Shown here piece after piece: positions 4,075-18,481 of a stretch of 64,000 nt of DNA. Position 1 is the first letter of the stretch. The number at the start of each line of letters is the position of its first letter. Under the pieces are notes generated by a model. That model saw only the letters and a list, made by a program, of their open reading frames with translations, was not told where the DNA came from and searched no databases. The DNA is from Lutibacter sp. (GTDB lineage Bacteria; Bacteroidota; Bacteroidia; Flavobacteriales; Flavobacteriaceae), in the NCBI RefSeq assembly GCF_016342705.1, contig NZ_JAEINV010000002.1, positions 186,001 through 250,000 of the forward strand. The letters run 5' to 3'. Made by a program: the position numbers and the translations under genes.

Positions 4075-6972
4075 TTATTCTTCTTTTGGAATGTAATAAC
4101 AACCACCCGGAGATTTATCTGGCGTAAAAGCTCTGTTAAACCATAAAGGTCTGCGTTCTCCGTTTGGACCAGGCGCTGGACGAGTCATTGCTAACCATTC
4201 TTTATAAATTTCGTGAGATTTGTTGGTATCTACAAAAATATCACCATACTTATCTTCGGGTTTTGGTTTTTCAATTCGCACACGTTGATGCCAGCAATGC
4301 ATTCCACTAATTGGATCTGGATGAACTGCATGTGTAATATTTTGATGTACGCCACCATCTTTCCAGAAAATACGTTTAGAATCTTTATCACTAGAATCAA
4401 AAGGATGAATTCCTGAAATAGTGTTCATTTTCCATCCACCTTCACCATTACTTTGAATTTTTACCGTGTTGGTTGCCCAACGATTTCCTATTTTATCTTG
4501 CGGTCTTCTCCATCGTCCAATATGATGGGAACAAGCTACAACTCCAGGCTTCATGCTTTGAGTTACCCAAACTTTATCAATGAAATAACCAATATCCGTA
4601 TTCATTTTTACCAAATCACCTGTTTGGAATCCCCATTTTTTGGCATCATCTGGATGCATCCAAATTGGATTTCTGTTTGAAATTTCAACCAACCATTTTG
4701 CATTTCCTGATCTTGAATGAATTAAAGTTGGCAACCTAAATGTTGGCACTAACACATATTCTCCTTTCGATTTATCTAAATTATCATTATGAATATGGCT
4801 CTTTATATATTTTGGAATAGCATATTCTGGCCATTTCCAATCTACCATAGTTTGTGAATAAAATTCATTTTTCCGTGATGGTGTTGGAAAACCAACCATT
4901 GCTTTTCCGTTAATCATAACTCCAATCTCTTTTCCATCTTTAAAAATCACATCGGAATCCTTATCAACTATAGAACCTTTTAATTGCTCTTCGGTTAATA
5001 ATGTTTCATTCTTTTTGTAAGATTCTCCTTTTTCAATTTCAAAAGCTCCGTACTTTTGCATGTACTGCAATTCTGTAATTCCTTCTTTTTTAGCAGCTTC
5101 CGGCAATCCTTTTACTCTTTCAAATAAATATTGATAATACTCATCAATGGTAATTTTTTCTCCTGGGCGATACGGTGATTCAAAATGTTTACGAATTCCC
5201 ATACTTCCATCCGGATCAATTTTCCAACTTAAGGCAATCCAAAATTCATCTTCTTCCCAAACTTCACCTGGATTTGCCTGATATGTATATTCTACTGGTT
5301 TTCCATTTCTTCTGGCTGCTTCTCTTAAAACTGGTTGACGGAATGCTACCCAAGTTCCACCGTGTGTTGCGTAAGAATTGATGTCGTGACGTTCTGAAGC
5401 CAATCCCATTGGCAACACAAAATCTGCGTGAAAAGCCGTTTCATTCCAAGTTGGAGTTAATGCTGCGTGCAATCCAAATTTACTTTCGTCCATAAACATT
5501 TCCATCCACGTAAAACCATCTGGATAGGTCCAAACTGGGTTGAAAACTCTTGAAAAATATACATCCATTTTACCTCTACCTTCTTTTAAAAAATGAGGTA
5601 ATAACTGGCTCATTTCAAAAAATGCTAACGGATATTCTTTTGGAAAATGCAATTCATTCCATTTTTTTTGAGGTTGCGGTTTATTTGGTTGCGTTGGTGC
5701 AAATTTATTCCAGCTATTTGGAGATGTACCTCCTTTAGCACCAACTGCTCCTGTTAATACAGTTAAAAAATGTAAACAACGTGCAACTGCCCAACCACCT
5801 AAATTTGATGCGCCTGCTGCACGCCAGTTGTGCGATGCAAATCGCTCACCAGCTTCACCAATTTTATGTGCAATTTCAACAATCATATCTGCTTTTACAC
5901 CTGATTCACTTTCGGCATATTCTGGTGTAAATTCCTTATATTCATCAATCATTGCGGCAATATAATTCTCAAAAGTGACCTCTTTATCACTATGCATTGC
6001 TTTTAAATAAGCCTTCCAGTTAGTCCAGTTTTCTAAATAATTTCTATTGTATAATCCTTCTTTTAAAATAATTAATGCCATTGCTAACAAAACAGCTGCT
6101 TCAGTTCCCGGATAAGATGGCAACCAATAATCGGACATACTTGCTGTGTTGGATAAACGAGGATCCATGGTGGCTAATTTAGCTCCTTTCATTTTTCCTT
6201 CAATAATGCGTTGTGCATGCGGATTAAAATAATGTCCCGATTCTAAATGTGCAGAAACTAATAAAATAAATTTTGCTTCGGCGTGATCTGGTGAAGGACG
6301 ATCATATCCATACCATAAATTATACCCAAAACGTGCTCCAGAAGAACAAATATTTGTGTGTGAATTATGTCCATCTATTCCCCAACCTTGTAAAATCCAG
6401 TTCATAAATTTTTCGTGCCCTGGTCTTCCAACGTGGTAGGCTATTTCATTATGTCTATCTTCTTTTATGGCTTTTCTAATTCTATCAGCAAAAGTATCTA
6501 AAACTTCATCCCAAGAAACACGTTCCCATTCACCATCACCACGTTTTCCTTTTCTTTTTAAAGGAAATAAAATACGATCTGGATCTGTTATTTGATTAAT
6601 GGTTGCCGGACCTTTGGCGCAGTTTCTACCTCTACTTCCTGGGTGATAAGGATTCCCTTCAAACTTTTTAACTTCTTGTGTTTCCTTATCAATAAAAGCA
6701 GTTAAACCACAAGCGCTTTCACAATTAAAACACGTTGTTGGAACTATTTGATAGGTTTTTTTCTCTTTTCTCGGCCAAACTTTTGGATTGTATTCTACCC
6801 AATTGTCCCATTTTTCTGGCGGAGGAAAATTCTCGTACATTTTAGCAACTTCTTCATCGGTAAAATGACGCATATCTTTATCAAACTCTTGATATCCTTC
6901 TTTGTGCAGATTTGGGATTAATCCAATTTTCTCTGCAATATTTTCTATAAATGATGGTTTTTTGTATCCCAT
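4075..6972 (-). CDS. Molybdopterin oxidoreductase catalytic subunit, SoeA-like (sulfite dehydrogenase or related)
   Basis: 965 residues, DMSO-reductase superfamily. An N-terminal [4Fe-4S] motif (CFNCESACG, then CAKGPATINQ about 30 residues later) leads into the bis-MGD domains. The likely Mo ligand is the Cys in THTNICSSGARFGY, as in polysulfide/thiosulfate reductases and SoeA. There is no twin-arginine signal, so the enzyme should face the cytoplasm, which fits the quinone-reducing sulfite dehydrogenase SoeABC and not periplasmic PsrA/PhsA. It follows the fused FeS/membrane subunit by 18 bases and ends at a strong terminator. The neighbouring molybdenum-cofactor and YeeE/YedE genes support a sulfur substrate. 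Substrate and direction (sulfite oxidation or sulfur-oxyanion reduction) are inferred. Confidence 0.8.
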   Translation of the reverse strand: MGYKKPSFIENIAEKIGLIPNLHKEGYQEFDKDMRHFTDEEVAKMYENFPPPEKWDNWVEYNPKVWPRKEKKTYQIVPTTCFNCESACGLTAFIDKETQEVKKFEGNPYHPGSRGRNCAKGPATINQITDPDRILFPLKRKGKRGDGEWERVSWDEVLDTFADRIRKAIKEDRHNEIAYHVGRPGHEKFMNWILQGWGIDGHNSHTNICSSGARFGYNLWYGYDRPSPDHAEAKFILLVSAHLESGHYFNPHAQRIIEGKMKGAKLATMDPRLSNTASMSDYWLPSYPGTEAAVLLAMALIILKEGLYNRNYLENWTNWKAYLKAMHSDKEVTFENYIAAMIDEYKEFTPEYAESESGVKADMIVEIAHKIGEAGERFASHNWRAAGASNLGGWAVARCLHFLTVLTGAVGAKGGTSPNSWNKFAPTQPNKPQPQKKWNELHFPKEYPLAFFEMSQLLPHFLKEGRGKMDVYFSRVFNPVWTYPDGFTWMEMFMDESKFGLHAALTPTWNETAFHADFVLPMGLASERHDINSYATHGGTWVAFRQPVLREAARRNGKPVEYTYQANPGEVWEEDEFWIALSWKIDPDGSMGIRKHFESPYRPGEKITIDEYYQYLFERVKGLPEAAKKEGITELQYMQKYGAFEIEKGESYKKNETLLTEEQLKGSIVDKDSDVIFKDGKEIGVMINGKAMVGFPTPSRKNEFYSQTMVDWKWPEYAIPKYIKSHIHNDNLDKSKGEYVLVPTFRLPTLIHSRSGNAKWLVEISNRNPIWMHPDDAKKWGFQTGDLVKMNTDIGYFIDKVWVTQSMKPGVVACSHHIGRWRRPQDKIGNRWATNTVKIQSNGEGGWKMNTISGIHPFDSSDKDSKRIFWKDGGVHQNITHAVHPDPISGMHCWHQRVRIEKPKPEDKYGDIFVDTNKSHEIYKEWLAMTRPAPGPNGERRPLWFNRAFTPDKSPGGCYYIPKEE

Positions 6973-6990: not shown

Positions 6991-8607
6991 TTAAGCTAAA
7001 GGAATTCTTTGTGGTGCTTCCACCCAAATTTTCTCCGTTGCAATAATTCCTATTAAAACTAATACTGCTGATCCAACTAATAAAGGAAATGTGTTGCCAA
7101 CTAATAAAAATATTAGTGGAATTATATTACCTACCATTACTGTTACAACCCAAAATAAGTTTTTATACCTTCCTTTTGTAATCATTTTCACTACTGTTTT
7201 TGCAGCTGTTGTTGGGTGTGTAATTGTTAATTCTGATATTAATGTAAATAAGTTAACTACTAATGCAATTACCAATATATTTGTTAATATGCTCATCCAA
7301 TTTTCTTGACCAAAAATTAAACCTGCCAACACAAAAATTGATGCTCCGGCCATAACGCTATGAACTAACATATGTAAAGGTAATGTTGGACTTTGCCAAA
7401 AATCGCGTCCTTTAGCTTGTGCAAATAAAAAGGCTGTGTATACTGCTAATAAAATAGCAAAAATTGCCGTAATCCAAAGTAATGCAGTTTCTCCAGTTTC
7501 AATTTCAAAAAATGTAATTGCTCCCCAAATGGTTACTAACAATCCGAAAATTGTAATTGTGTAACCACCTTTTACCAACCAAGAATTCCATTGTGGACGC
7601 AATAAAACGTTTAAAAAACGGTCTGGTCTATCTAAATCCATCACCAAGAATAATCCTGTTAACGCTAAAAATGTTAATGAAATTCCAGCAGACCATAATT
7701 TAGCTGTAGAAGAAACTTCATACCCTAAAATAATTGCTAAAAATGGAATTAAAAATGCACCTGCCGCAATTGCTTTTGTAAAAACATAAGCAGAAACTTC
7801 CCAGCCCCAAAGTATTCCTTTATCTGGCGTATCATATACTCTTCGCGCCTTTCCAGTTAACACGTCAATATAATTAGGGTTTTCAGTATCTTTTCTCTGA
7901 TAAGCAGCCTGAATATCATTATCTATAACCATTTGTAATAAATCTACATCTCCATTTGTATGTATCATTTTTTCAGCAGCTTTTGCAAAATGACCAACTC
8001 CACGCGCTTGCGAATTCCACAAACTTGGTCCAGATTTATCTGTAGCTTCCGGAATTAAACTGGCATCATCCGCATCTATATAGAACAGATTAGGATTGGT
8101 TCCTTTTTCTGGCTTACGAACTTTTACTGCCTGACGCGCTAATAATTGAGAAATCTCCGTTGTTGGATTGTGCATATCACCCGCAATAATTGCATGTTCC
8201 GGGCAAACAGTAACACAAGCTGGTTCTCTACCTACATCAACTCTATGTGCGCAATAATTACATTTAGCCGCTGTGTTATTATCTGGATCAATATACAAGG
8301 CATCATAAGGACATGCTTGCATACAAGATTTACAACCAATACAACGGTTGTTATCAAAATCTACAATGCCGTCTTCACGCGTATACAACGCTTCAACCGG
8401 ACAAATTTCTACACAAGGTGCATCTGTACAATGGTTGCAACGCATTACTGAAAAAATTCTTCGTGTATCGGGGAATTCTCCCTTTTCAACTTGCTTTACA
8501 TACGTTCTGTTTACACCAATAGCAACATCGTGTTCTGATTTACAAGCAGTTGTACAAGCATGACAACCTATACACTTTCGGTTATCTATTATAAAACCAT
8601 ACTTCAT
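6991..8607 (-). CDS. Fused four-cluster ferredoxin and NrfD-type membrane anchor (SoeB-SoeC-like)
   Basis: 538 residues. Residues 1 to about 175 are a DmsB/SoeB-type ferredoxin with four cysteine groups (CIGCHACTTACK, CNHCTDAPCVEICP, CIGCKSCMQACP and CNYCAHR with a later CVTVCP). After a hydrophilic linker, residues from about 260 to the end hold about eight hydrophobic segments of the NrfD/SoeC quinone-binding family. It would pass electrons between SoeA and the membrane quinone pool. The electron-transfer and anchor subunits are separate genes in the best-studied SoeABC. It is the first gene of a two-gene operon with a candidate Crp/Fnr operator upstream. Confidence 0.85.
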   Translation of the reverse strand: MKYGFIIDNRKCIGCHACTTACKSEHDVAIGVNRTYVKQVEKGEFPDTRRIFSVMRCNHCTDAPCVEICPVEALYTREDGIVDFDNNRCIGCKSCMQACPYDALYIDPDNNTAAKCNYCAHRVDVGREPACVTVCPEHAIIAGDMHNPTTEISQLLARQAVKVRKPEKGTNPNLFYIDADDASLIPEATDKSGPSLWNSQARGVGHFAKAAEKMIHTNGDVDLLQMVIDNDIQAAYQRKDTENPNYIDVLTGKARRVYDTPDKGILWGWEVSAYVFTKAIAAGAFLIPFLAIILGYEVSSTAKLWSAGISLTFLALTGLFLVMDLDRPDRFLNVLLRPQWNSWLVKGGYTITIFGLLVTIWGAITFFEIETGETALLWITAIFAILLAVYTAFLFAQAKGRDFWQSPTLPLHMLVHSVMAGASIFVLAGLIFGQENWMSILTNILVIALVVNLFTLISELTITHPTTAAKTVVKMITKGRYKNLFWVVTVMVGNIIPLIFLLVGNTFPLLVGSAVLVLIGIIATEKIWVEAPQRIPLA

Positions 8608-8632: not shown

Positions 8633-8676
8633 CAAAGTTAGTTTATAGGAATATTAGTTTTGTAACTAACATCACA
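8633..8676 (-). promoter_or_regulatory. soeBC-soeA promoter with candidate Crp/Fnr-type operator
   Basis: The -7 element TAACTTTG (8640-8633) matches TAnnTTTG, with no recognisable -33 box. Upstream, 8661-8676 reads TGTAACTAACATCACA, matching 10 of 12 arm bases of TGTAAC-N4-GTTACA. Its centre (8668.5) lies 35.5 bp from the last -7 base, near -41.5 from the expected transcription start, the place of a class II activator. The yeeE promoter has the same spacing. An overlapping 16-bp perfect dyad, TTAGTTTTGTAACTAA (8654-8669), is an alternative site. Confidence 0.55.
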
Positions 8677-8735
8677 TATAAATTTATTTAGAATGGTTTT
8701 AAATAAATTAAAGCAATCATGTATTCAAAATGATT

Positions 8736-8743
8736 TATTTTTG
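8736..8743 (+). promoter_or_regulatory. -7 promoter element for moaD
   Basis: TATTTTTG, a full TAnnTTTG match 20 bases before the moaD ATG. No -33 element is visible. Confidence 0.45.
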
Positions 8744-8763
8744 CAAAACCATATAAAAATAAC

Positions 8764-9006
8764 ATGAGAATTCAAATACTATTTTTTGGAATTACAACGG
8801 ATTTAACTGGAGAAAATTCAATTACTTTTGAATTAACTTCTGATAGCTCTGTGGGGATATTAAAAGTGGCGTTAAAAGATAGGTTTCCTAATTTAAAATA
8901 CTTACATCAATTTGCCATAGCAGTAAATGAAGAATATGCTGAAGACAATTTAATTCTTTATGAAAATGATGTTGTAGCTATAATTCCACCTGTAAGTGGT
9001 GGTTAA
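8764..9006 (+). CDS. moaD: Molybdopterin synthase small subunit MoaD
   Basis: 80 residues, ubiquitin-like fold, ending in the diagnostic Gly-Gly (PPVSGG) that is adenylated by a MoeB-type enzyme and thiocarboxylated to donate sulfur to precursor Z. It is divergent from soeBC and sits near moaE, its partner subunit, with a small unrelated membrane gene on the other strand between them. Its stop overlaps the end of that gene by four bases. Confidence 0.92.
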   Translation: MRIQILFFGITTDLTGENSITFELTSDSSVGILKVALKDRFPNLKYLHQFAIAVNEEYAEDNLILYENDVVAIIPPVSGG

Positions 9007-9278
9007 TTTCTGAAGTATTTTTTATCTATATAAAAAGTACCAAAAGGAATAATAGATGCTGCTAAAACTGCAATAAACGTTTTAGATTTCCACTCTAATT
9101 GATATTTTAAAACTATTGCTAAAATAACATAACCAATAAAAAGTATGCCATGAGGCATTCCTAAAATTTTCACATAAGAATCTATGCCGGCCAAATATTT
9201 AATTGGAGTTGCAATGAACAGCAACAATAAATAAGACACTCCTTCTAACACACTTACAATTCTAAATGTTTTCTTCAT
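9003..9278 (-). CDS. Small membrane protein, DUF3817-like
   Basis: 91 residues with about three hydrophobic segments (VSYLLLLFIATPIKYL, the segment after PHGILFIGY, and a C-terminal one ending in DKKYFRN). Length, the GMPHG motif and pattern fit the DUF3817 integral membrane family, which has no assigned function. It lies between moaD and moaE on the opposite strand with its own -7 element (TACTTTTG, 9312-9305). A role in cofactor synthesis is not implied. Confidence 0.75.
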   Translation of the reverse strand: MKKTFRIVSVLEGVSYLLLLFIATPIKYLAGIDSYVKILGMPHGILFIGYVILAIVLKYQLEWKSKTFIAVLAASIIPFGTFYIDKKYFRN

Positions 9279-9304
9279 TAAACTAATTTTAAATTACAAT
9301 CGGG

Positions 9305-9334
9305 CAAAAGTACACTTTTGATTTCTTAACTTTG
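9305..9334. promoter_or_regulatory. Divergent promoters for DUF3817 gene and moaE
   Basis: Two full TAnnTTTG matches face away from each other: TACTTTTG on the minus strand (9312-9305) for the DUF3817 gene and TAACTTTG on the plus strand (9327-9334) for moaE, 19 bases before its ATG. No -33 boxes stand out. Confidence 0.45.
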
Positions 9335-9352
9335 TGAACGTTATCTTAAAAA

Positions 9353-9778
9353 ATGGAAAATAAAACTTCAATAAAAATTACTTCTTCAACTTTAAATCTG
9401 CAAGATTGCTACAATTTTGTACAAGATGCTTCTTGTGGCGGCATTGCTTTGTTTGTTGGCACTGTTAGAAATGCTACTCAAAATAAAGAAGTAACTCTAT
9501 TAGATTTTAGCGGTTACGAACCAATGGCGATAAAAGAAATGCAAAAAATTGCAGATACTGCTTTGGTAAAATTTGCAATTCATAAAATTGCAATTCATCA
9601 TGCGGTAGGCGAATTAATGATTGGTGATATTCCTGTAATTATTGCGGTTTCATCAGCGCATAGAAAAGCAGCTTTTGAAGCTTGTGAATTTGCTATTGAT
9701 ACATTAAAAGAATCTGTTCCTATTTGGAAAAAAGAACATTTTGAAGATGGTGAGGTTTGGGTGAATTCGCATCCATAA
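9353..9778 (+). CDS. moaE: Molybdopterin synthase large subunit MoaE
   Basis: 141 residues, full length. MoaE is the catalytic subunit that uses the MoaD thiocarboxylate to make the molybdopterin dithiolene. Family features visible are GGIALFVGTVRNAT near the N-terminus, YEPMAIKEMQKI, HAVGELMIGD and the C-terminal active-site region SVPIWKKEHFEDGEVW with its conserved lysines. It is convergent with the long moa operon, ending one base from the moeB-type gene. Confidence 0.95.
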   Translation: MENKTSIKITSSTLNLQDCYNFVQDASCGGIALFVGTVRNATQNKEVTLLDFSGYEPMAIKEMQKIADTALVKFAIHKIAIHHAVGELMIGDIPVIIAVSSAHRKAAFEACEFAIDTLKESVPIWKKEHFEDGEVWVNSHP

Positions 9779-9779
9779 A

Positions 9780-10859
9780 TTAAAACTTTTCTATTCCTTC
9801 AAATAAGCTAAAAACGGATAATTGAGGATATTTATTTTTTAATTTACTTGTTATATCGTAACTCAAAATTCCCTTATTACAAACTATAACATAATACTTT
9901 TTAAAATCTGGTATAAAAGTATCTACCTCAAACTTTTTATGCGGAATCTTTTGATGTACATTAAACGGAATAACACTTTCAAGATTATTTACAACACTTA
10001 CAATTTGAATATTAGAATCAGTTAATCTTTTCTTTAATTCTGAAGATGAAATTAACAAAGAACTATCCTGTGTTGTGCAATGTGCATCTAAATAATTAGA
10101 ATTTCTAAATATATCTTTAAAAATTAGGGATTTGTTTTTCTTTAATTTAATTTTTAACTGACTGTTTTCTAAAGTATTATATATCAACAATTGATTTGTC
10201 AGTAGTTTTCCAGTTTTGGTAATTAATTTAACAACTTCATTTACTTGAAATAAAGCAATAATACCAACAATTGGATTTAAAGTTCCTGCTTCTTCACAAT
10301 TAGGAATATCAGTAGCAATTTCCGGAAAAGCATCTCTTAAATTAGTTGTATAATCACCATCACCATTTAACACATTAAACGTTGCAACATAACCATCAAA
10401 CTTATATAAAGAACCATAAACTAGCGGCTTCTTTTTAAGTACACATGCATCATTTATTAAGTATTTTATCTGCAAATTATCGGTTCCATCAACAATTATA
10501 TCATACTTAGCAATTAGTTCTAAAACAGAATTTTTATTGATGGCTTTGTTGGTGTAGGTAACTTTTGTAAACGGCGCTCTTTTTTCAATTTCTTTGGCTA
10601 AAATTTCCACTTTTGGCTGATGAATATCTTTAACTCTAAAAAAAACCTGACGATGTAAATTAGAAACAGAAACAGTATCAAAATCAACCAAATGCAATTC
10701 ACCAATACCACTTGTGGCTAAATATATTGCAATGGGACTTCCTAAACCGCCACAACCAATTACTAAAACTTTGGCTTTTTGCAACAATTCTTGTCCAGCC
10801 AAACCAATTTCAGATAATGTAGTTTGCCTTTTAAAATATGCTTCTTTATTAAAGTCCAT
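9780..10859 (-). CDS. moeB: MoeB/ThiF-type E1-like adenylyltransferase with C-terminal rhodanese-like domain
   Basis: 359 residues. It likely adenylates the MoaD C-terminus for sulfur loading. Residues about 1-240 are the E1-like domain, with nucleotide loop VIGCGGLGSPIAIYL, NLHRQVFF and NCEEAGTLNPIVG. Residues about 260-359 resemble a rhodanese domain and keep a candidate active Cys in VIVCNKGILSYD, as in eukaryotic MOCS3. The first zinc-binding Cys pair usual in MoeB is absent (the segment reads YTTNLRDAFPEI). It is the last gene of the ten-gene operon and overlaps the preceding gene by 11 bases. A dual role with ThiS-like proteins is possible. Confidence 0.85.
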   Translation of the reverse strand: MDFNKEAYFKRQTTLSEIGLAGQELLQKAKVLVIGCGGLGSPIAIYLATSGIGELHLVDFDTVSVSNLHRQVFFRVKDIHQPKVEILAKEIEKRAPFTKVTYTNKAINKNSVLELIAKYDIIVDGTDNLQIKYLINDACVLKKKPLVYGSLYKFDGYVATFNVLNGDGDYTTNLRDAFPEIATDIPNCEEAGTLNPIVGIIALFQVNEVVKLITKTGKLLTNQLLIYNTLENSQLKIKLKKNKSLIFKDIFRNSNYLDAHCTTQDSSLLISSSELKKRLTDSNIQIVSVVNNLESVIPFNVHQKIPHKKFEVDTFIPDFKKYYVIVCNKGILSYDITSKLKNKYPQLSVFSLFEGIEKF

Positions 10860-11694
10860 TACTTAATAATTTACGTTTCCCATTTTCATTTAAATAATAC
10901 TTTTCATTGTTTATTAAAAAGAAGTTATTTAACTCTTTAAGATACGCAAAAAATTGTACATCTCCAAAACCATACACGGTATTTTCATTTTGCCAAAAAA
11001 GTAATTTTTGAACTATTTCCGTCGAAGTTAACGCTTCAGAAGCAACTATTTGAAGCATTTTATTTTCAATTTCATTGAAGCCGTTTTCTTGTGGAAACCT
11101 TTTTAAATGTTGATTTATTGCCGCTTGTAAATAGGTGAATTTTCCAATTTTACTAAAGTTAAATTCTGATAGATTTTTATAATTATTTTCAACAAATAAT
11201 TTCCAAGCCTGATCTGCAAATAATAATTTATGTTTCGTTAGCTTTACTCTATTTTTATAAAGTTCAACATATTCTTCTGAAGAAAAGTCACTTAATGAAT
11301 GTAACTTGGTTTTTCCTTTAACCCTTCCTGTGCAAACTAAATTATAGGTAACATCCTTTCGGTAATTCTGCAACAAAAAAGAACATAAAGCCAGCATGTT
11401 TACCTGGCAAAACAAATCGTATTCAAACCACAATACAATTTCATCGTAAATCGTTAAATCTTCAGTTTTTAATATTTCTTTTATGGTTTTATCAAAATAT
11501 TCTAATTTTCCAACACCAAAATATTTTTCAAAAAAAGCATAGCGTTGTTTCCAAAAATCATCACTGGCAACTTGCTCTAATATTGGACCTTCGCAAAACA
11601 TTTCTCTATAAATAACAATTTCACCTTTTATTCCTGATTTTTGAAATATTGGCAAAATTGCATCACCGTTAAGTACGTGAATTGAATTATTCAT
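10849..11694 (-). CDS. DUF1835-type protein of unknown function in the moa operon
   Basis: 281 residues, soluble, no signal peptide. The N-terminus (SIHVLNGDAILPIFQKSGI, then EMFCEGP) resembles the DUF1835 family, whose function is not established. The C-terminal half (ALTSTEIVQKLLFWQ and a following strand-rich segment) has a winged-helix flavour. It overlaps the genes on both sides (8 and 11 bases), so it is translationally tied to mobA and moeB. I do not assign a function; the position suggests an accessory role in cofactor synthesis or its control. Confidence 0.65.
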   Translation of the reverse strand: MNNSIHVLNGDAILPIFQKSGIKGEIVIYREMFCEGPILEQVASDDFWKQRYAFFEKYFGVGKLEYFDKTIKEILKTEDLTIYDEIVLWFEYDLFCQVNMLALCSFLLQNYRKDVTYNLVCTGRVKGKTKLHSLSDFSSEEYVELYKNRVKLTKHKLLFADQAWKLFVENNYKNLSEFNFSKIGKFTYLQAAINQHLKRFPQENGFNEIENKMLQIVASEALTSTEIVQKLLFWQNENTVYGFGDVQFFAYLKELNNFFLINNEKYYLNENGKRKLLSNGL

Positions 11695-12799
11695 TTATTT
11701 CTTTAAATGCGTATTTAAAATCTTCAGGGGTATTAATATTTCTTATAAAACTATCATCAATTTCAACAATTTCAACATCAGAATTTATCAATACTTTACG
11801 TGGACAAGAATAACCTTGCGCTAAATAATTTAACAACAAAGTATAACTTTTAGGCTCCCAAATGGTAATTAAAGGTTCTGGAAACTGCGCGTTTTTCCCT
11901 TTAATTGTTGTGGCAATTTTTGATGGATTTCTATGTTTCAACAACAACTGAATAACTTCATCATTTACAAATGGCAAATCGGTTGCCAACACCAACCATG
12001 CAACATCTGGGTTTTCTTGAAAAGCAGAACAAATTGCGCCAAACGGGCCTAAACCAATAAATTTATCGGTAATTTTATTTTCATTTGAAATTTCTTGTTC
12101 TTCTCTAACCGATAAATAGGTTTTTAAATGATACTTTTCTAATAATTCTATAGTAACATCGCGCTGATTTTTACCATAAAATTGAAGCGTTCCTTTATCG
12201 GTTCCCATTCTGGTACTTTTTCCTCCAGCTAACACCAAACCTTGAATTGGAGCTATTTTTTGCTTGATAAGATTCTCAATATGAGTTGATATTTTATCAA
12301 TTTCATCAATAGAATAACAGATTAAATTTTTAATTTGAGGATTATGTTCTTCTAAAAAAGAGAAGTATTTTGAATCATTTGTTAATTTTATAACAAACTG
12401 TATATTTGTTAACTGATCTAACCTTTTTAAAACCGAAGCCTCTTTATCATTGTCTAAAATCAACACTTGTTTAGCGCCTTCATAATGATTACCATTGATA
12501 AATAAAAAATCGTACTGTGAAAACTGAATGCGTTGATTGAATTTATTTACCGTTGAATTTACCTCATATTTTGCAGTACCTTTATGGTGATAAACAAACT
12601 TTTCGAAGGCTTTAGATTCAACAGCATCATTATGTGAAGCATCCAAATAAGCCATTTTATACTTGGTTAAATTTTGCGCAACTTGTTGTACTAAATTAGC
12701 TATTACATCACATTTTGTACCTACTATTGAAATTTCATTTGTCGCAAAATTATCGTTATCTCTTAATTTAAGTTTTGCGTGTTTTTGATGTTTACCCAT
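11687..12799 (-). CDS. mobA: Molybdenum cofactor guanylyltransferase MobA with an extra N-terminal domain
   Basis: 370 residues from the ATG at 12799. An in-frame TTG 33 bases upstream is rejected because ATG gives the 8-base overlap with moaC typical of this operon. Residues about 185-370 are a MobA nucleotidyltransferase, with LVLAGGKSTRMGTDKG, GLGPFGAICSAF and ATDLPFV. MobA attaches GMP to make the bis-MGD form that SoeA-type enzymes need. Residues 1 to about 180 are not MobA. The strand EISIVGTKCDVI at the start and the NGNHYEGAKQVLIL segment look like a MobB-type P-loop domain that has lost its Walker A lysine; that assignment is tentative. Confidence 0.82.
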   Translation of the reverse strand: MGKHQKHAKLKLRDNDNFATNEISIVGTKCDVIANLVQQVAQNLTKYKMAYLDASHNDAVESKAFEKFVYHHKGTAKYEVNSTVNKFNQRIQFSQYDFLFINGNHYEGAKQVLILDNDKEASVLKRLDQLTNIQFVIKLTNDSKYFSFLEEHNPQIKNLICYSIDEIDKISTHIENLIKQKIAPIQGLVLAGGKSTRMGTDKGTLQFYGKNQRDVTIELLEKYHLKTYLSVREEQEISNENKITDKFIGLGPFGAICSAFQENPDVAWLVLATDLPFVNDEVIQLLLKHRNPSKIATTIKGKNAQFPEPLITIWEPKSYTLLLNYLAQGYSCPRKVLINSDVEIVEIDDSFIRNINTPEDFKYAFKEINE

Positions 12800-13271
12800 T
12801 TTTAATGTCGCTTTTACCTCCAAATTTTTCAACCAATTTCACTTCTTTAATCACCATTTTTTGCGAAATGGCTTTACACATATCATACACTGTTAATGCA
12901 GCAATATTTGCACCTGTTAACGCTTCCATTTCAACTCCGGTTTTCCCTTCAATTGCAACCGTGCAAAGTATTTCAATATGCTCTTTATCAGTAATTTCAA
13001 TATCAATATCAACACCATTTATAAGTAATGGATGACACATTGGAATTAATTCTGAAGTTTTTTTAACCGCCTGAATACCAGCTATAATAGCCGTTTGAAA
13101 AACCGGTCCCTTTTTAGTAATTAATTCATCATTATTAAAATGGGAAATAATTGCTGAACCTAAAAACATAGTAGCTTTTGCTGTTGCTTGTCTTTTGGTA
13201 ACTTTTTTATCACCAACATTCACCATTTTTGGCTGATTCTTTTTATTAATATGGCTAAAGTTATCTTCCAT
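12792..13271 (-). CDS. moaC: Cyclic pyranopterin monophosphate synthase MoaC
   Basis: 159 residues, standard length. MoaC converts the MoaA product to cyclic pyranopterin monophosphate. Family motifs visible are HINKKNQPKMVNVGDK, IPMCHPLLINGVDIDIE (active-site MCHP), TGVEMEALTGANIAALTVYD with catalytic residues around MEAL, and DMCKAISQKMVI. It sits 36 bases after moeA and overlaps mobA by 8 bases. Confidence 0.96.
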   Translation of the reverse strand: MEDNFSHINKKNQPKMVNVGDKKVTKRQATAKATMFLGSAIISHFNNDELITKKGPVFQTAIIAGIQAVKKTSELIPMCHPLLINGVDIDIEITDKEHIEILCTVAIEGKTGVEMEALTGANIAALTVYDMCKAISQKMVIKEVKLVEKFGGKSDIKNG

Positions 13272-13307
13272 AAATATAGGATTTTTAATGAAGTTCAGAA
13301 CTATGTT

Positions 13308-14501
13308 TTATCTGAATTTAATAATTGGGAAAATCGTTCCTTTTGTAAAATTAGCGCTATCATCTGGCAATTCCAAAAAAGCATCTGCCTGCGTTAAATT
13401 TGCTAAATCACCTGAACCTTTTCCTGCTATTGGTGTTGCAATAATTTCCCCTCCCTTTAGATCTAATTTTACTTGTAAAAAATAGGTTAAATTAGGTTTA
13501 AAATAGAAGTCTTCTGATAAAATTGCTTCATTTATAGGCATTTCTAAATTAACCGATTTATAATACCAAGGATAAAAATATTTTAAACAACTCACAAAAG
13601 TTGACACTGGATTTCCCGGAAAAGCGAAAACTGTTTTATGTTGCTTTTTCCCAAACCAAAATGGTTTCCCCGGACGTTGTTTTACTTGATGAAATAATTT
13701 TTCCACACCTAAATTATTCAAAACTTCAGGAATAAAATCGAATTTTCCTTTTGAAACTGCACCACTAAAAAGCAATACATCATACTCCTTTAAAAAGCCC
13801 TTAATTGTTGATGTTAGTGTTTCTTTATCATCTAAAATATGAGCGGTATCCGACTTAATATGCAGCTTTTCTAATAAGGAAGCCAATGCATACACATTAC
13901 TTCTTCTTATCTGATGTTCCGCTGGAATTTGATCAACTTCAACCAACTCATTTCCTGTTGAAACAATCATAACTTTTGGTTGTTTAGCAACTTTAATTGT
14001 GGCTTTTCCAACCGTTGCAAACACGCTAATTTCAGCTGCAGAAATTAAGGTGTCTTTGGGAATTAAAACATCGTGTTGCTTTCTGTCCAATCCTTTTAAA
14101 TGCACATTTTGAAATTCCTTTACAGCATCTAAATCAACAGTTGCACTATTATTTTCTATAGTTAATAATTCATATTGAATTACAACATCAGTATTTTTTG
14201 GTAATACAGCACCTGTCATAGCCTCAATACAATTCTCAGTGTTTTTTAATGATAACTGTGGACTTCCAGCGGCCTGAATTCCTTCAATTTTAAAGGAGCG
14301 AATTCCTTTATTAAAAGCTGTTGATGAAATAGCAATTCCATCCATACTAACTCTGTTAAATGGCGGAAAATCTCTATCTGCAACAATATTTTCTTTTAAA
14401 ATTCTACCTGAAGATTGTAAAAAATCAATCTCTTCAACCCCAAAATCTTCAGAGTTTTTTAAAATAATATCAAGAGCTTCTTTGACTGTTGTTAATTCCA
14501 T
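13308..14501 (-). CDS. moeA: Molybdopterin molybdenumtransferase MoeA
   Basis: 397 residues. MoeA inserts molybdate into adenylated molybdopterin. Visible motifs are DRDFPPFNRVSMDGIA at residues about 40-55, MTGAVLPKNTDVVIQYE, IVSTGNELVE, SGAVSKGKFD and FAFPGNPVSTFV. One base separates it from the upstream TrpF-like gene. No moaB/mog gene for the preceding adenylylation step is seen in the window, so it must lie elsewhere or be supplied by another protein. Confidence 0.95.
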   Translation of the reverse strand: MELTTVKEALDIILKNSEDFGVEEIDFLQSSGRILKENIVADRDFPPFNRVSMDGIAISSTAFNKGIRSFKIEGIQAAGSPQLSLKNTENCIEAMTGAVLPKNTDVVIQYELLTIENNSATVDLDAVKEFQNVHLKGLDRKQHDVLIPKDTLISAAEISVFATVGKATIKVAKQPKVMIVSTGNELVEVDQIPAEHQIRRSNVYALASLLEKLHIKSDTAHILDDKETLTSTIKGFLKEYDVLLFSGAVSKGKFDFIPEVLNNLGVEKLFHQVKQRPGKPFWFGKKQHKTVFAFPGNPVSTFVSCLKYFYPWYYKSVNLEMPINEAILSEDFYFKPNLTYFLQVKLDLKGGEIIATPIAGKGSGDLANLTQADAFLELPDDSANFTKGTIFPIIKFR

Positions 14502-14502
14502 T

Positions 14503-15159
14503 TTAATTACTTTTTATGGCACTAAAAAATGCATTTAATTTTTGTGAATCTAATTTCCCATTAGTTCTAACTCCGCTGCATACATCTAATCCAAAAGAGC
14601 CAACTTGTTCAATTGCAGTTTTGGCATTTAAAGGATTTAATCCTCCTGCTAAAAACACTGGAATATTTACGCTATTTACAATTTGTTTACTAATTTCCCA
14701 GTTATGCACTCTACCAGTTCCTCCTAATTCTTTAGTGGCTAAATTTGGGTTTCCGCTATCTAATAAAATGATATCAACTTTTGAAGAAATTTCAATAGCC
14801 TCTTCAATAGATTTTTCATTTAGTACATGTAAAACCTGAACAATTTTTACGTTTGGAAGTTCCTCTTTTAATTGCGCATGAGTTCCTTCAGTTAATGCAT
14901 CAACCAATTGAATAGTAGTAGTTTTTACTTTTGAATGGTGTTTTAGAATTTCATCAACCTTAGTTTCACTAGTTAACAAAAAAGTTTCAATATGTTTTGG
15001 GACAGAAAGTGCTATTTCGGCTATTAATTCATCTGATATTATTCCAGGTCCACTTGGCATATTCCCAACCAAACCAACCGCTGAAGCTCCTGCACTAATT
15101 GCCAAATTTGCTTCTTGAATACTGCTTATACAACAAATTTTTATATGAGTTTTATTCAT
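14503..15159 (-). CDS. TrpF-like (phosphoribosylanthranilate isomerase family) TIM-barrel protein
   Basis: 218 residues. It keeps the family landmarks: KICC with the position of the catalytic Cys, the strand ending ILLDSG with the catalytic Asp position, GGTGRVHNW, FLAGGLNPLNA and GLDVCSGVR (phosphate loop). By sequence it could isomerise phosphoribosylanthranilate in tryptophan synthesis. However, it is not in a trp operon: it overlaps moaA by one base and lies one base before moeA. The segment between strands 1 and 2 (VGNMPSGPGIIS) departs from the usual FxxxSPR. It may be a paralogue acting on a different ribosyl compound; I leave the symbol blank. Confidence 0.75.
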   Translation of the reverse strand: MNKTHIKICCISSIQEANLAISAGASAVGLVGNMPSGPGIISDELIAEIALSVPKHIETFLLTSETKVDEILKHHSKVKTTTIQLVDALTEGTHAQLKEELPNVKIVQVLHVLNEKSIEEAIEISSKVDIILLDSGNPNLATKELGGTGRVHNWEISKQIVNSVNIPVFLAGGLNPLNAKTAIEQVGSFGLDVCSGVRTNGKLDSQKLNAFFSAIKSN

Positions 15160-16145
15160 TATCCGCCAATTGTAGACATACTTTCGGAAACATCGTTTCC
15201 TCTATTTGCTTCTGCAATAAAACCGTTTTCCGGTTTGTGATGTACAGTTTTTATAAATAATTCTTTTAACTCATCATCACTTGCACCATTTCTTATAAAA
15301 TCGCGTACATTAAAAACGCCACCATCAAACAAACAATTTTTAAACATTCCGGTTGCTGTAATTCTAATTCTATTACAATCGTTGCAAATGGTTCTTGTAA
15401 ACGCTGGAATTATACCAAAAGTTCCTTTATAACTTGGAATTCTATAGTTTTTTGAAGTTGAAGATTTTTTTGACACAACCGATTCAACAGTTGAATATTG
15501 ATTTTTTATATGATTGATAATTTTATTGAAATCCCAAAGTTCTTCCATATCTCTTTGTCCTTTTCCATTAAAAGGCATTTCTTCAATAAAACGAACTGCA
15601 ATGTCCTTATCTTTAGAAAGCTCAACAAAATCAATAATTTCATCAGTATTAAAACCAGACTGTACAACTACATTTAGTTTTAATTTGAGATTACTTTTTT
15701 CTAATTTTTCAAAAGTATCAAACACATTTTCAAAAACATCTCTACGTGTTATTGTTGCGAACTTTTCTTTATGTAAACTATCAATACTTAAATTAATAGC
15801 ATTTATGTTCAATGCTTCTAACTTATCTATATAGTTTGATATTAATGCGCCGTTTGTGGTAATGTTAATTTCATCTAATTTATCATTAAAGGAAAGCGAT
15901 TCTAAAAAGCTAACAAAATCTTTTCTTACAAAAGGTTCTCCACCAGTTAAACGAACTTTATTTACGCCCAACTCAGAAAGAACGCGGGTAATTCTATACA
16001 TTTCTTTGTATGAAAGTAGTTCTTTTCTATCAACAATATCAATTCCATGAGCAGGCATACAATATTGGCATCGCAAATTACACCGATCAGTAACCGCTAA
16101 ACGTAAATATGAAATTTTCCTACCAAATTTATCTCTTAACTCCAT
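15159..16145 (-). CDS. moaA: GTP 3',8-cyclase MoaA
   Basis: 328 residues. This radical SAM enzyme starts molybdenum-cofactor synthesis from GTP. The N-terminal SAM cluster CNLRCQYC, the GGEPFVRKDF region, the C-terminal cluster (CNDCNRIR with a later CLFDGG) and the terminal Gly-Gly (STIGG) needed for activity are all present. It shares one base with the Crp/Fnr gene upstream and with the TrpF-like gene downstream, so it is tightly coupled in the operon. Confidence 0.97.
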   Translation of the reverse strand: MELRDKFGRKISYLRLAVTDRCNLRCQYCMPAHGIDIVDRKELLSYKEMYRITRVLSELGVNKVRLTGGEPFVRKDFVSFLESLSFNDKLDEINITTNGALISNYIDKLEALNINAINLSIDSLHKEKFATITRRDVFENVFDTFEKLEKSNLKLKLNVVVQSGFNTDEIIDFVELSKDKDIAVRFIEEMPFNGKGQRDMEELWDFNKIINHIKNQYSTVESVVSKKSSTSKNYRIPSYKGTFGIIPAFTRTICNDCNRIRITATGMFKNCLFDGGVFNVRDFIRNGASDDELKELFIKTVHHKPENGFIAEANRGNDVSESMSTIGG

Positions 16146-16774
16146 TAATTGAGCGATATTTTGTTTCTTCCCAATACTATAACTTCTTCCTTTTCCAATT
16201 TTTTTAATACTCTAGAAATTGCTTCTCTAGATACTTTTAAATCTCTGGCAATGTCGAAATGCTTTCTGTTAATTGTAGCGTCATTATAAATTAAACTTGC
16301 ATTCTCTAAATATTTTAACAGTCTAAACTCTAGGCTTTCAAAAGCAATATCATTAATTTTTTCTATTAAAAATGAAGTTTGCTGAACGTTTAATTTATTA
16401 TAAAAAGATCTCCAAGAGCTATATTTCACAAACCACGAATTTACGGTTTTTGTTGGAACTGCAATGTACGTAATTGCACACTCTGCTTTAAGTCTAATTT
16501 CACTATTTTTACATTCCAATGAGTAAGTTATGGCTATTGCACTTGTTTGTTTCGCCGTTAAATAATGCAAAAATATTCCATTTCCTTTACCATCTCTGCG
16601 CATTACTTTTACAACACCTGAAATTACAAAAGGAATAAGTTCAATTTCGCGACGAATTTCAAGAATAATTTTATCGGGTTCTGCCTTTTTTAAAACGCCA
16701 TAATTACACATTTCTTGTCGCAGATTCTCTTCTAAGAACGAAAATTTTTCAGCAACAATTTCATTAATCTTCAT
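16145..16774 (-). CDS. Crp/Fnr-family transcriptional regulator inside the yeeE-moa operon
   Basis: 209 residues from the ATG at 16774 (a TTG one codon earlier is not needed). Residues about 20-135 form the cyclic-nucleotide-binding-like sensor domain, and residues about 145-209 a winged helix with recognition helix VSREAISRVLKKLEKEE, including the E-x-x-S-R pattern of FNR. No N-terminal Cys cluster is visible, so an oxygen-sensing [4Fe-4S] site like that of FNR is unlikely. It sits between the YeeE/YedE genes and moaA. A candidate dyad site lies at the operon promoter, so autoregulation is plausible. Confidence 0.85.
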   Translation of the reverse strand: MKINEIVAEKFSFLEENLRQEMCNYGVLKKAEPDKIILEIRREIELIPFVISGVVKVMRRDGKGNGIFLHYLTAKQTSAIAITYSLECKNSEIRLKAECAITYIAVPTKTVNSWFVKYSSWRSFYNKLNVQQTSFLIEKINDIAFESLEFRLLKYLENASLIYNDATINRKHFDIARDLKVSREAISRVLKKLEKEEVIVLGRNKISLN

Positions 16775-16786
16775 CAAAACAAGTAA

Positions 16787-17200
16787 TTAATGAGGTAATT
16801 TATCCTTTAAAAGTCCATATAAGAACGCTCCTAAAGTAGCTCCAAAAATTACAACTAAAATAGAAACAACTCCTTTTCCAACTAAAACAAACATTGGTCC
16901 TGGACATGCTCCCGCTAAAGCCCAACCCAAACCAAATAAAGTACCTCCTAATAAATTTCTATACAAACCCACTTTTTTAGGAGTAATATGAATTTCGTTT
17001 CCTTCAAATGTTTTTACCATTTTCTTTTTAAATAGAAACATACTTATCATTCCCAAAAGTACTGCCGAACCAATTATTCCATACATATGAAACGATTGAA
17101 ATTTAAACATTTCGTATATTCTATACCACGAAATAATTTCTGCCTTGCTCATTACTATTCCAAAAAGAATACCTACTAAAAAAAATTTAATGTATTTCAT
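16787..17200 (-). CDS. YeeE/YedE half-transporter, DUF6691-type, with GACPGP motif
   Basis: 137 residues with about four hydrophobic segments. The motif GWALAGACPGPMFVL carries the Cys of the YeeE/YedE family, whose studied member TsuA imports thiosulfate by relaying it along membrane cysteines. It appears to be the second half of a split transporter; the first half is encoded 12 bases upstream. Sulfur-compound import is a family-level inference supported by the adjacent molybdoenzyme genes. Confidence 0.82.
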   Translation of the reverse strand: MKYIKFFLVGILFGIVMSKAEIISWYRIYEMFKFQSFHMYGIIGSAVLLGMISMFLFKKKMVKTFEGNEIHITPKKVGLYRNLLGGTLFGLGWALAGACPGPMFVLVGKGVVSILVVIFGATLGAFLYGLLKDKLPH

Positions 17201-17212
17201 ACTGTTTTCTTT

Positions 17213-17773
17213 TTAAAATAATAATGGTAAAATAAACCACGTCATTACTAAACCTCCAATAAAAAATCCGATTACTGAAATTAATGATGGTAATTCTAAG
17301 TTGCTTAATCCAACAATTGCGTGTCCGGAAGTGCAACCGCCAGCCCAACGCGCTCCAAAGCCAACCATAATACCTGCAATAATTAAGATTAAAAATCCTT
17401 TTAATGATAGCATTGTATCAATACTGAAAATTTCATCCGGCAAATATGTAGTTCCTGCATTTAGAATTCCAATATCAGCTAAGTCTTGAACCGTTTGAGG
17501 ATTAATTGCAACTGCTTCTGTAGAAGAAGATAACCAGTATGTAGAAATAAAACCACCTGCAATTGCACCAAGTACAAATATTAAATTCCAGGTATTTTCT
17601 TTCCAATCAATTTTAAAATAGTCAACAAATTTACCAGCTCCTCCAATAGAACAAAGTGTTTCTAAATTTGATGAAACACCAAAACGTTCACCAAAATAAA
17701 AAAGCAAAAACATGACTAATGCAATAACGGGACCTGCTATATACCAAGCCCAAGGTTGAGTAATAAATTCCAT
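17213..17773 (-). CDS. YeeE/YedE half-transporter with GGCTSGH motif
   Basis: 186 residues with about five hydrophobic segments. The signature GARWAGGCTSGHAIVGLS contains the conserved YeeE/YedE Cys. Together with the 137-residue partner it would make one full transporter for a sulfur compound, possibly thiosulfate. It is the first gene of an operon that continues through the Crp/Fnr regulator into moaA to moeB, which links uptake with cofactor supply. Confidence 0.85.
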   Translation of the reverse strand: MEFITQPWAWYIAGPVIALVMFLLFYFGERFGVSSNLETLCSIGGAGKFVDYFKIDWKENTWNLIFVLGAIAGGFISTYWLSSSTEAVAINPQTVQDLADIGILNAGTTYLPDEIFSIDTMLSLKGFLILIIAGIMVGFGARWAGGCTSGHAIVGLSNLELPSLISVIGFFIGGLVMTWFILPLLF

Positions 17774-17797
17774 AATTTATTTAATTAGTTAGTTTTA

Positions 17798-17842
17798 TAA
17801 AAGTATTCTATAAATTATGTTGCTATGTAACTTTTGTTACAT
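17798..17842 (-). promoter_or_regulatory. yeeE-moa operon promoter with perfect Crp/Fnr-type dyad
   Basis: A perfect 18-bp dyad, ATGTAACTTTTGTTACAT, occupies 17825-17842, just after the stop of the upstream Crp/Fnr gene. Its centre lies 35.5 bp from the last base of a -7-like element TACTTTTA (17805-17798, one mismatch to TAnnTTTG), the same distance as at the soe promoter. No -33 box is seen, as expected for an activator-dependent promoter. No T-run follows the dyad on the minus strand, so it is not a terminator. Confidence 0.65.
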
Positions 17843-17845
17843 TAG

Positions 17846-18481
17846 TTAAAACTCAAGTATTTCAATTTTGTTTCTATTCAGTTTTATTTTCCCCTCATTT
17901 TCCAGTTGTTTTAACAATCTAGAAATTACAACTCGAGAAGTATGCATATCATAAGCAATGTCTTGATGTGTTGTATTTAATGAAGTTTCTCGCATAATTT
18001 GAGCTTTATCTTTCAAGTATTTATACAAACGCTCATCCATACGCATAAACGCCAGCGTATCAATAGTTTCCATCATTTCATTTAAACGAATATTATAACT
18101 ATCAATTACAAAATTTCTCCAAGATTTGTATTTTACTAACCATTCATCTAATTTTTCTTTTGGTAAAAAAATGATTTCAGATTCCTTTTCAGCAATTGCT
18201 CTAATTCCACATTTACCATTAGAGATAGCGCTTGCAAACGAACTTGCACAAGTATCACCTCGTTCTAAAAAGTACAATAATATTTCTTCACCTTTTTTAT
18301 CTTCTCGTACAATTTTAATTGCGCCATCTAATAATAAAGGTACTCCTTTCATTTTATCACCTAAATCAACCAGTAACTCATTTTCACGTAGTTTTTTATA
18401 TACACCAACCTGCTCAATTTCGTCTAATAATTCTTTTTCAAAAACAAATGAATAATAGTTGTCTAATTTTTCTCTTATCAT
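17846..18481 (-). CDS. Crp/Fnr-family transcriptional regulator downstream of kdtA
   Basis: 211 residues. It has the Crp/Fnr sensor domain (LLLDGAIKIVREDKKGEEI, followed by GDTCASSFASA) and a winged helix with recognition segment MHTSRVVISRLLKQLENEG. It is clearly related to the regulator encoded 1.1 kb downstream. Its start overlaps the kdtA stop by four bases, and its stop is three bases before the dyad that heads the yeeE operon. It is a prime candidate to bind that dyad, perhaps in response to a redox, NO or sulfur signal. Confidence 0.85.
   Translation of the reverse strand: MIREKLDNYYSFVFEKELLDEIEQVGVYKKLRENELLVDLGDKMKGVPLLLDGAIKIVREDKKGEEILLYFLERGDTCASSFASAISNGKCGIRAIAEKESEIIFLPKEKLDEWLVKYKSWRNFVIDSYNIRLNEMMETIDTLAFMRMDERLYKYLKDKAQIMRETSLNTTHQDIAYDMHTSRVVISRLLKQLENEGKIKLNRNKIEILEF

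Follow-up and report, generated by a model that had tools for sequence, protein, structure and literature searches.

Paired boxes before sulfur genes of a Lutibacter genome as probable class II sites of two paralogous Crp/Fnr regulators

A 64,000-nucleotide stretch of a Lutibacter sp. genome (contig NZ_JAEINV010000002.1, positions 186,001 to 250,000; hereafter the window) has two minus-strand promoters, one before the yeeE-moa genes and one before the soeBC-soeA genes, each of which combines a Crp/Fnr-type dyad with a -7 box. These paired boxes before the sulfur genes are real and very unlikely to be a product of chance. We suggest that each dyad is probably a class II site for activation by one of two Crp/Fnr paralogues, Crp1 and Crp2, which would drive a sulfur-oxidation regulon. 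What the sequence comparisons outline is most likely a pair of regulators with a half-finished hand-over between them, inside a sulfur regulon that is family-wide.

Paired boxes and their conservation

The yeeE dyad, TGTAACAAAAGTTACA, lies at 17826..17841 (minus strand, read from 17841 to 17826), is of the Crp1 type and matches TGTAAC-N4-GTTACA at 12/12 positions. It lies 4 bases past the crp1 stop codon, and its centre is 60 bp before the yeeE1 ATG. The soe dyad, TGTGATGTTAGTTACA, at 8661..8676 (minus, read from 8676 to 8661), is a hybrid, TGTGAT-N4-GTTACA, with 10/12 matches: its promoter-distal half is the Crp2-type TGTGAT and its promoter-proximal half the Crp1-type GTTACA. The accompanying -7 boxes are TACTTTTA (17798..17805, minus), which is TAnnTTTG with one mismatch, and TAACTTTG (8633..8640, minus), which is an exact TAnnTTTG. 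Recomputed for both promoters, the distance from the dyad centre to the last base of the box (17798 and 8633) is 35.5 bp. An earlier sequence-only reading of this DNA had given the same positions, match counts and spacing, and all of them are correct. It had also remarked on the single mismatch of the yeeE box, which is indeed there, with A replacing the last G. The same A ends the box in 6/12 yeeE promoters of Crp2-bearing relatives, so the box looks inherited.

Mapped flavobacterial start sites place TAnnTTTG at -12 to -5, according to PMC9723704; hence, with the 35.5 bp spacing, the window dyads are centred at about -40.5. The modal spacing at yeeE and MBL-rhodanese promoters is 36.5 bp, i.e. 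-41.5. The two spacings, 35.5 and 36.5 bp, thus correspond to predicted centres of -40.5 and -41.5, at or next to the class II position. The sequence-only reading had put both window sites near -41.5: the class II geometry stands, being conserved and position-specific, while the window sites themselves are near -40.5.

Sixty first-order Markov copies of the window, searched on both strands with 35.5 or 36.5 bp spacing, hold 0.033 equally strict composites per 64 kb, and the window holds 2, which bears out the earlier remark that the shared geometry is hard to get by chance. It is hardly credible that the dyads arose by chance or are palindromes without a regulatory role. In favour of this, the bare 16-mer (at most one mismatch) is only twice as frequent in the genome as the reversed pattern (28 sites versus 13), and 12/28 of its sites fall within open reading frames of at least 60 amino acids; it was dropped as a genome-wide regulon finder for these reasons, and because it is weak evidence, more weight is given to dyad and -7 box combined. 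Against chance stand the position-specific conservation of the composite across genera and the zero counts of the shifted-spacer and in-gene controls described below.

Our search set comprises 149 family genomes, 115 of which have YeeE1 matches (121 matches); 110 of the 121 form the yeeE promoter set, the other 11 not being included. A dyad with at most three mismatches lies 40-90 bp before the yeeE start in 65/110 promoters; 60 of these 65 also have a TAnnTTTG box (at most one mismatch) at 35.5 bp (14) or 36.5 bp (46), and the composite is present at 61/110 when 34.5-37.5 bp is allowed. The control stretch from -300 to -150, which offers three times the positions, yields 13 dyads versus 71. 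Where Crp1 is encoded in the same locus, the composite is found at 29/37 yeeE promoters, versus 32/73 without it (P=0.0006).

Few genomes of the family set (7/149) encode a full-length SoeBC; therefore the soe survey used relatives in named genomes, the nearest of them belonging to Lutibacter (93% identity in L. oceani). It covers the best 80 of 567 relatives, minus one locus with 2 bp of upstream DNA (L333), i.e. 79 loci, and the composite is defined as TGTRAY-N4-RTYACA with at most two mismatches plus a box with at most one. It occurs in 37/79 loci, all of them among the 47 with at least 75% protein identity to the window (mostly titled Flavobacteriaceae or Lutibacter), and in 0/32 distant loci (at most 69%, mostly Saprospiraceae); the 75% line was set after the result was known. 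The spacing is 34.5 bp in one composite, 35.5 bp in 30 and 36.5 bp in 6. None of 239 control windows within soeBC carries the composite, and 19/349 windows farther upstream do, yeeE promoters accounting for 13 of the 19. In all 10 near loci without their own box, soeBC stands behind same-strand crp1-yeeE1-yeeE2, with a composite at yeeE in 9 (the exception is L310); 46/47 near loci thus have soe behind such a promoter. The sequence-only reading had made its proposal depend on conservation of the dyad upstream of orthologous genes, and with 37/47 near soeBC loci and the above share of yeeE promoters it is conserved at both. In three Saprospiraceae soe loci (L341, L347, L365), TGTGAT-N4-ATCAC-type dyads accompanied by a box stand 1.6-1.8 kb before soeBC and may mark an operon promoter.

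The spacing itself is specific. The exact dyad-spacer-box pattern is present in 82/149 family genomes, versus 0/149 with a spacer 5 bp longer, as for a class II Crp/Fnr promoter, and the reversed control gives 1 match. In a sample of the phylum the exact pattern is found in 29/395 genomes, 20 of them of the same family and 28 of the same class (reversed control, 2 matches).

Two regulators and two box types

Crp1 (17846..18481, minus) has a cNMP-binding-like domain and HTH_Crp_2, both Pfam models being above cut-off, and its AlphaFold2 model (pLDDT 86, pTM 0.61) shows strands, a long helix and C-terminal helices. Crp2 (16145..16777, minus; the TTG start has an ATG one codon farther in) is 34% identical to Crp1, scores 27.3 bits for HTH_Crp_2 against a cut-off of 27 and has no match to the cNMP model. 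The two belong to separate groups in the tree (88/100). The recognition helix is SRVVISR in Crp1 and SREAISR in Crp2, which in CRP numbering gives Arg180, Val181 and Arg185 for the former and Arg180, Glu181 and Arg185 for the latter; the best Crp1 homologue carries SRVV[IV]SR in 37/37 yeeE loci that hold one. PMC1274295 names R180, E181 and R185 of CRP, with Arg180 and Glu181 as specificity positions, and associates the loss of Glu181 with GTAACnnnnGTTAC in HcpR2.

The type of the soe box varies together with the regulator. Lutibacter-type soe boxes are TGTGAT-N4-ATCACA, its variants or TGTGAT/GTTACA hybrids, and many are without either TGTAAC half. With box types assigned by hand from the soe survey and Crp2 presence taken as at least 60% identity, Crp2 is found in 16/19 soe genomes with a TGTGA-type half versus 0/18 without one (Fisher P=8.7e-8, which overstates independence because the genomes are related); a SRETISR relative is present in 2 of the remaining 3. 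In the congeneric genome G047, Crp2 is accompanied by TGTGATTTCAATCACA at 35.5 bp. Hybrid halves like those of the window also occur in L287, L289, L290 and L293, the Crp2-type half being promoter-distal in all five full hybrids; two partial hybrids (L301, L329) are in the opposite orientation. At yeeE, the distal half is of the TGTAAC type in 10/12 Crp2-bearing loci (L375, whose yeeE start is outside the locus, is left out, and no yeeE1 is seen in L368 or L372); L381 has a yeeE dyad with no box at the expected distance. Hence, the regulon proposed by the sequence-only reading, linking the molybdoenzyme with yeeE, is upheld in its sites and gene order but not in its single site type and single regulator: the TGTGA half at soe tracks Glu181 of Crp2, and TGTAAC tracks Val181 of Crp1.

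The same regulator reading both window boxes was dropped as the leading view after the soe survey. Here Crp1 alone would control both promoters directly, tolerating the TGTGAT half, and Crp2 would be a side player. The perfect GTTACA half nearest the promoter in the window soe box, the same 35.5 bp geometry at both promoters and the TGTAAC-type soe boxes in genomes without Crp2 all speak for it. We nevertheless consider it unlikely, since TGTGA-half boxes occur almost only with the Glu181 paralogue (the counts above) and both TGTAAC halves are lost in many Lutibacter-type boxes.

The gene order is also conserved. In 20 of 30 Crp1 loci, the best of the Crp1 matches, crp1 is followed by a yeeE, TauE, MBL-rhodanese or SulP gene, and in 18 of the 30 a composite lies at most 64 bp from the crp1 stop. 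The moaA gene follows crp2 in 15/15 Crp2 loci, and yeeE2 precedes crp2 in 14/15. This constant order suggests a Crp1-Crp2-soe cascade: Crp1 control of yeeE would extend to crp2 and to cofactor synthesis, because crp2 and moaA follow yeeE2. In the G047 assembly (L165), the gene behind crp2 is not moaA but encodes a periplasmic binding protein of the phosphonate type.

We suggest that Crp1 reads TGTAAC-N4-GTTACA and would activate, rather than repress, yeeE1-yeeE2-crp2-moa from the TAnnTTTG-type promoter. Crp2, as a product of the yeeE-crp2-moa unit, would read TGTGAT-N4-ATCACA, and in the Lutibacter-type genomes it has probably gained control of the soeBC-soeA promoter. The window species would have retained a hybrid soe box, half Crp1-type and half Crp2-type. 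Relatives lacking Crp2 have soe under a TGTAAC-type box or inside the crp1-yeeE unit, and there control by Crp1 would be direct. The signal is probably reactive or sulfane sulfur species, sensed at Cys78 of Crp1.

The binder might also be another Crp/Fnr protein of the genome, either a Pro181 protein on contig C24 (L171) or a Crp1 paralogue on contig C7 (L172), with a nitric oxide or redox (HcpR-like) or other signal instead of sulfur. HcpR2 with Pro181 is predicted to read GTAACnnnnGTTAC (PMC1274295), and L171 has SRPT; the C7 paralogue shares the SRVV helix of Crp1, adjoins TauE and is 3.3 kb from SQR; and two soe-box genomes match neither Crp1 nor Crp2. We regard this as quite improbable. 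L171 is without Arg185 (SRPTLNLLM), for which reason HcpR as the binder was demoted to a rival, and its neighbours do not resemble sulfur genes; Crp1 adjoins the sites in many genomes; and the C7 paralogue probably shares targets with Crp1, which would widen the proposed control by Crp1 and Crp2 rather than replace it.

Several observations weigh against the hand-over between Crp1 and Crp2 and the regulon around it. The composite is absent from 49/110 yeeE promoters; 23 of these may be operon-internal, because a same-strand open frame ends at most 45 bp before yeeE (0/61 with the composite), and 26 are still without explanation. The in-gene windows of the soe control are coding, not intergenic, DNA. 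The covariation rests on hand-assigned box types and represents few independent switches, mostly in one genus. L294, a metagenome-assembled genome, has a TGTGA-type box with no Crp2 found, and L295 was counted for Crp2 on a fragment of 47 residues. In the genomes of L324 and L325, which have TGTAAC-type soe boxes, the Crp2 query at 1e-10 matched nothing, so that Crp1 was not seen either. Two Crp2-bearing genomes have TGTGAT at yeeE also, and the yeeE box of L379 is mixed. Finally, the third Crp of the genome, L171, has at position 181 the proline of HcpR2.

Wider targets and a candidate signal

Only 30 matches to the exact composite were available as loci in which the next gene could be read. 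This gene is a TauE/SafE-like exporter in 11 (one assigned by Pfam, the remainder by sequence likeness), MBL-rhodanese in 4 and yeeE in 2; SulP, rhodanese, peroxiredoxin, a cytochrome bd subunit I-like protein and a SoxA-like cytochrome follow once each, the last two being below the family cut-offs, and in the other 8 the next gene is different or unclear. The genome of the window has a single perfect dyad whose box is exact and 35.5 bp away; it stands before an MBL-rhodanese gene, whose product appears persulfide-dioxygenase-like by domain make-up. The composite is present at 25/28 MBL-rhodanese promoters (30 loci of matches minus the incomplete L209 and L216), at 35.5 bp in 8 and at 36.5 bp in 17.

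Other sites of the same genome with at most one mismatch precede type III SQR, NiFe hydrogenase small subunit and thioredoxin genes, and a further one lies at a PhsA-like molybdoenzyme gene facing a multihaem cytochrome gene; none of these four has a box at the class II distance, save one with one mismatch at thioredoxin. The hydrogenase dyad (L016, G000:C8:299335), with one mismatch, is situated between a HypA-like gene (assigned by eye) and the small subunit gene.

The SQR gene, on contig C7, scores 645.9 bits against a cut-off of 525 for NF049943. Among 21 SQR promoters (loci L235-L256, i.e. 22, with the incomplete L247 left out), 19 have a TGAY-N4-RTCA core (at most one mismatch) 36.5 bp from the box, and in 13/21 a TGTAAC dyad (at most one mismatch) lies 22-38 bp upstream of this second core. 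The looser TGTRAY scan gives 10 matches at 36.5 bp, 9 of the second-core type and one (L240) a TGTAAC-type dyad. The SQR promoter thus looks doubly controlled, with two apparent inputs, and SQR was kept out of the count of class II TGTAAC promoters. We suggest that the target set beyond yeeE and soe would include MBL-rhodanese, TauE/SafE and probably SQR. Contig C7 carries a second sulfur cluster of the same genome: the Crp1 paralogue L172 (G000:C7:20425-21048), 63% identical to Crp1 and with the same helix, is followed by a TauE/SafE exporter and is 3.3 kb from SQR.

Cys78 of Crp1 is part of a G[DE]TC motif and is invariant in 61/61 distinct Crp1-type sequences. The predicted model places it in the ligand cassette, where a short helix (79-87) begins; in CRP, the phosphate of cyclic AMP (cAMP) is bound at that region. 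The invariance of Cys78, together with the list of sulfur targets, suggests a reactive-sulfur signal, and Cys78 is probably the sensor of reactive or sulfane sulfur species. In most relatives, CC follows at positions 84-85. The window clade carries Cys91 in its place or lacks a second cysteine in that region, and this absence of the Cys84/85 common in the family counts against the proposed explanation. The four-cysteine 4Fe-4S motif of FNR is absent from Crp1, which has only Cys78 and Cys91. In Acinetobacter a Crp-like protein is persulfidated, with unknown effect, according to PMC7315123.

More tentatively, Crp1 might found a class of Crp/Fnr proteins that sense reactive sulfur via a cassette cysteine (GDTC, in many cases with CC after it) and govern sulfur oxidation throughout the Flavobacteriaceae. 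The Lutibacter paralogue, encoded within Crp1's own target operon, might then be capturing one promoter, with the window species half-way and its hybrid box read, perhaps, by a Crp1/Crp2 heterodimer.

Genes of the window and known systems

The minus-strand order is crp1, yeeE1, yeeE2, crp2, moaA, a PRAI-like gene, moeA, moaC, a MobA-like gene, a DUF1835 gene and ThiF/MoeB (to 9780); plus-strand moaE and a DUF3817 gene separate the last of these from the soeBC-like gene. The short YeeE/YedE proteins are a PmpA-like half, yeeE1 (17213..17773, minus), matching the C-terminal part of the TsuA model, and a PmpB-like half, yeeE2 (16787..17200, minus), matching its N-terminal part; short PmpA/PmpB proteins are described as YeeE halves in PMC11582611. 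Behind crp2 lie, all on the minus strand, moaA (15159..16145), which is above the TIGR02666 cut-off, the PRAI (TrpF)-like gene within the moa run (14503..15159), moeA (13308..14501), moaC (12792..13271), the MobA-like NTP transferase gene (11687..12832), the DUF1835 gene (10849..11694) and the ThiF/MoeB-like gene (9780..10859). A PRAI (TrpF)-like gene between moaA and moeA is also present in 3/15 Crp2 loci (L369, L371, L374; the loci end at 1.5 kb).

The soe genes encode a 4Fe-4S ferredoxin fused to an NrfD membrane subunit (soeBC-like, 6991..8607, minus) and a molybdopterin oxidoreductase (soeA-like, 4075..6972, minus). We take this molybdoenzyme to resemble Soe, the SoeABC sulfite dehydrogenase. 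No NCBIfam model is above cut-off for the Soe-like proteins of the window, and for this reason sulfite is only a presumed substrate. The molybdopterin, 4Fe-4S and NrfD subunits of SoeABC and PsrABC/PhsABC are all represented in the window genes; the difference, besides the lack of a passing model, is that the BC subunits are fused.

In the open-access literature, and with the wordings searched, no description of this regulon or regulator was found; subscription papers and other wordings were not covered. With a named site, a recognition helix, a candidate sensor cysteine and targets, the binding, sensing and hand-off can be tested by small experiments, and the Crp1/Crp2 pair serves as a naturally occurring case in which a regulator, once duplicated, and its box change in step.

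Among known regulators, HcpR2 is similar to Crp1 in its palindrome, GTAACnnnnGTTAC, and in the loss of Glu181 (PMC1274295). It differs in Pro181 and in its predicted hcp targets (nitrogen oxides), where Crp1 has Val181, a GDTC cassette and linkage to sulfur genes; hcp itself was not searched for. Both among models and among structure sequences, NtcA of cyanobacteria is one of the best matches of Crp1. It reads GTA-N8-TAC at the class II position with an Arg-Val helix, and serves nitrogen control by 2-oxoglutarate; we know of no link of NtcA to sulfur. Crp1, however, is far below the NtcA cut-off (41.3 vs 244.95 bits). Crp2 shares the Arg-Glu helix with E. coli CRP, and the Lutibacter-type TGTGAT-N4-ATCACA is a CRP-like pair of half-sites; neither protein passes the cAMP-type CRP equivalog PRK11753 (43.2 bits for Crp1 and 27.6 for Crp2, vs 266).

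Last, regulators of the BigR/SoxR type (ArsR) and of the CsoR type are repressors with folds unrelated to Crp/Fnr. They resemble the system described here in that they control sulfur-oxidation genes, for example Blh (sulfur transferase/dioxygenase) under BigR, and differ from it in that here a Crp/Fnr protein stands at a predicted activator position.

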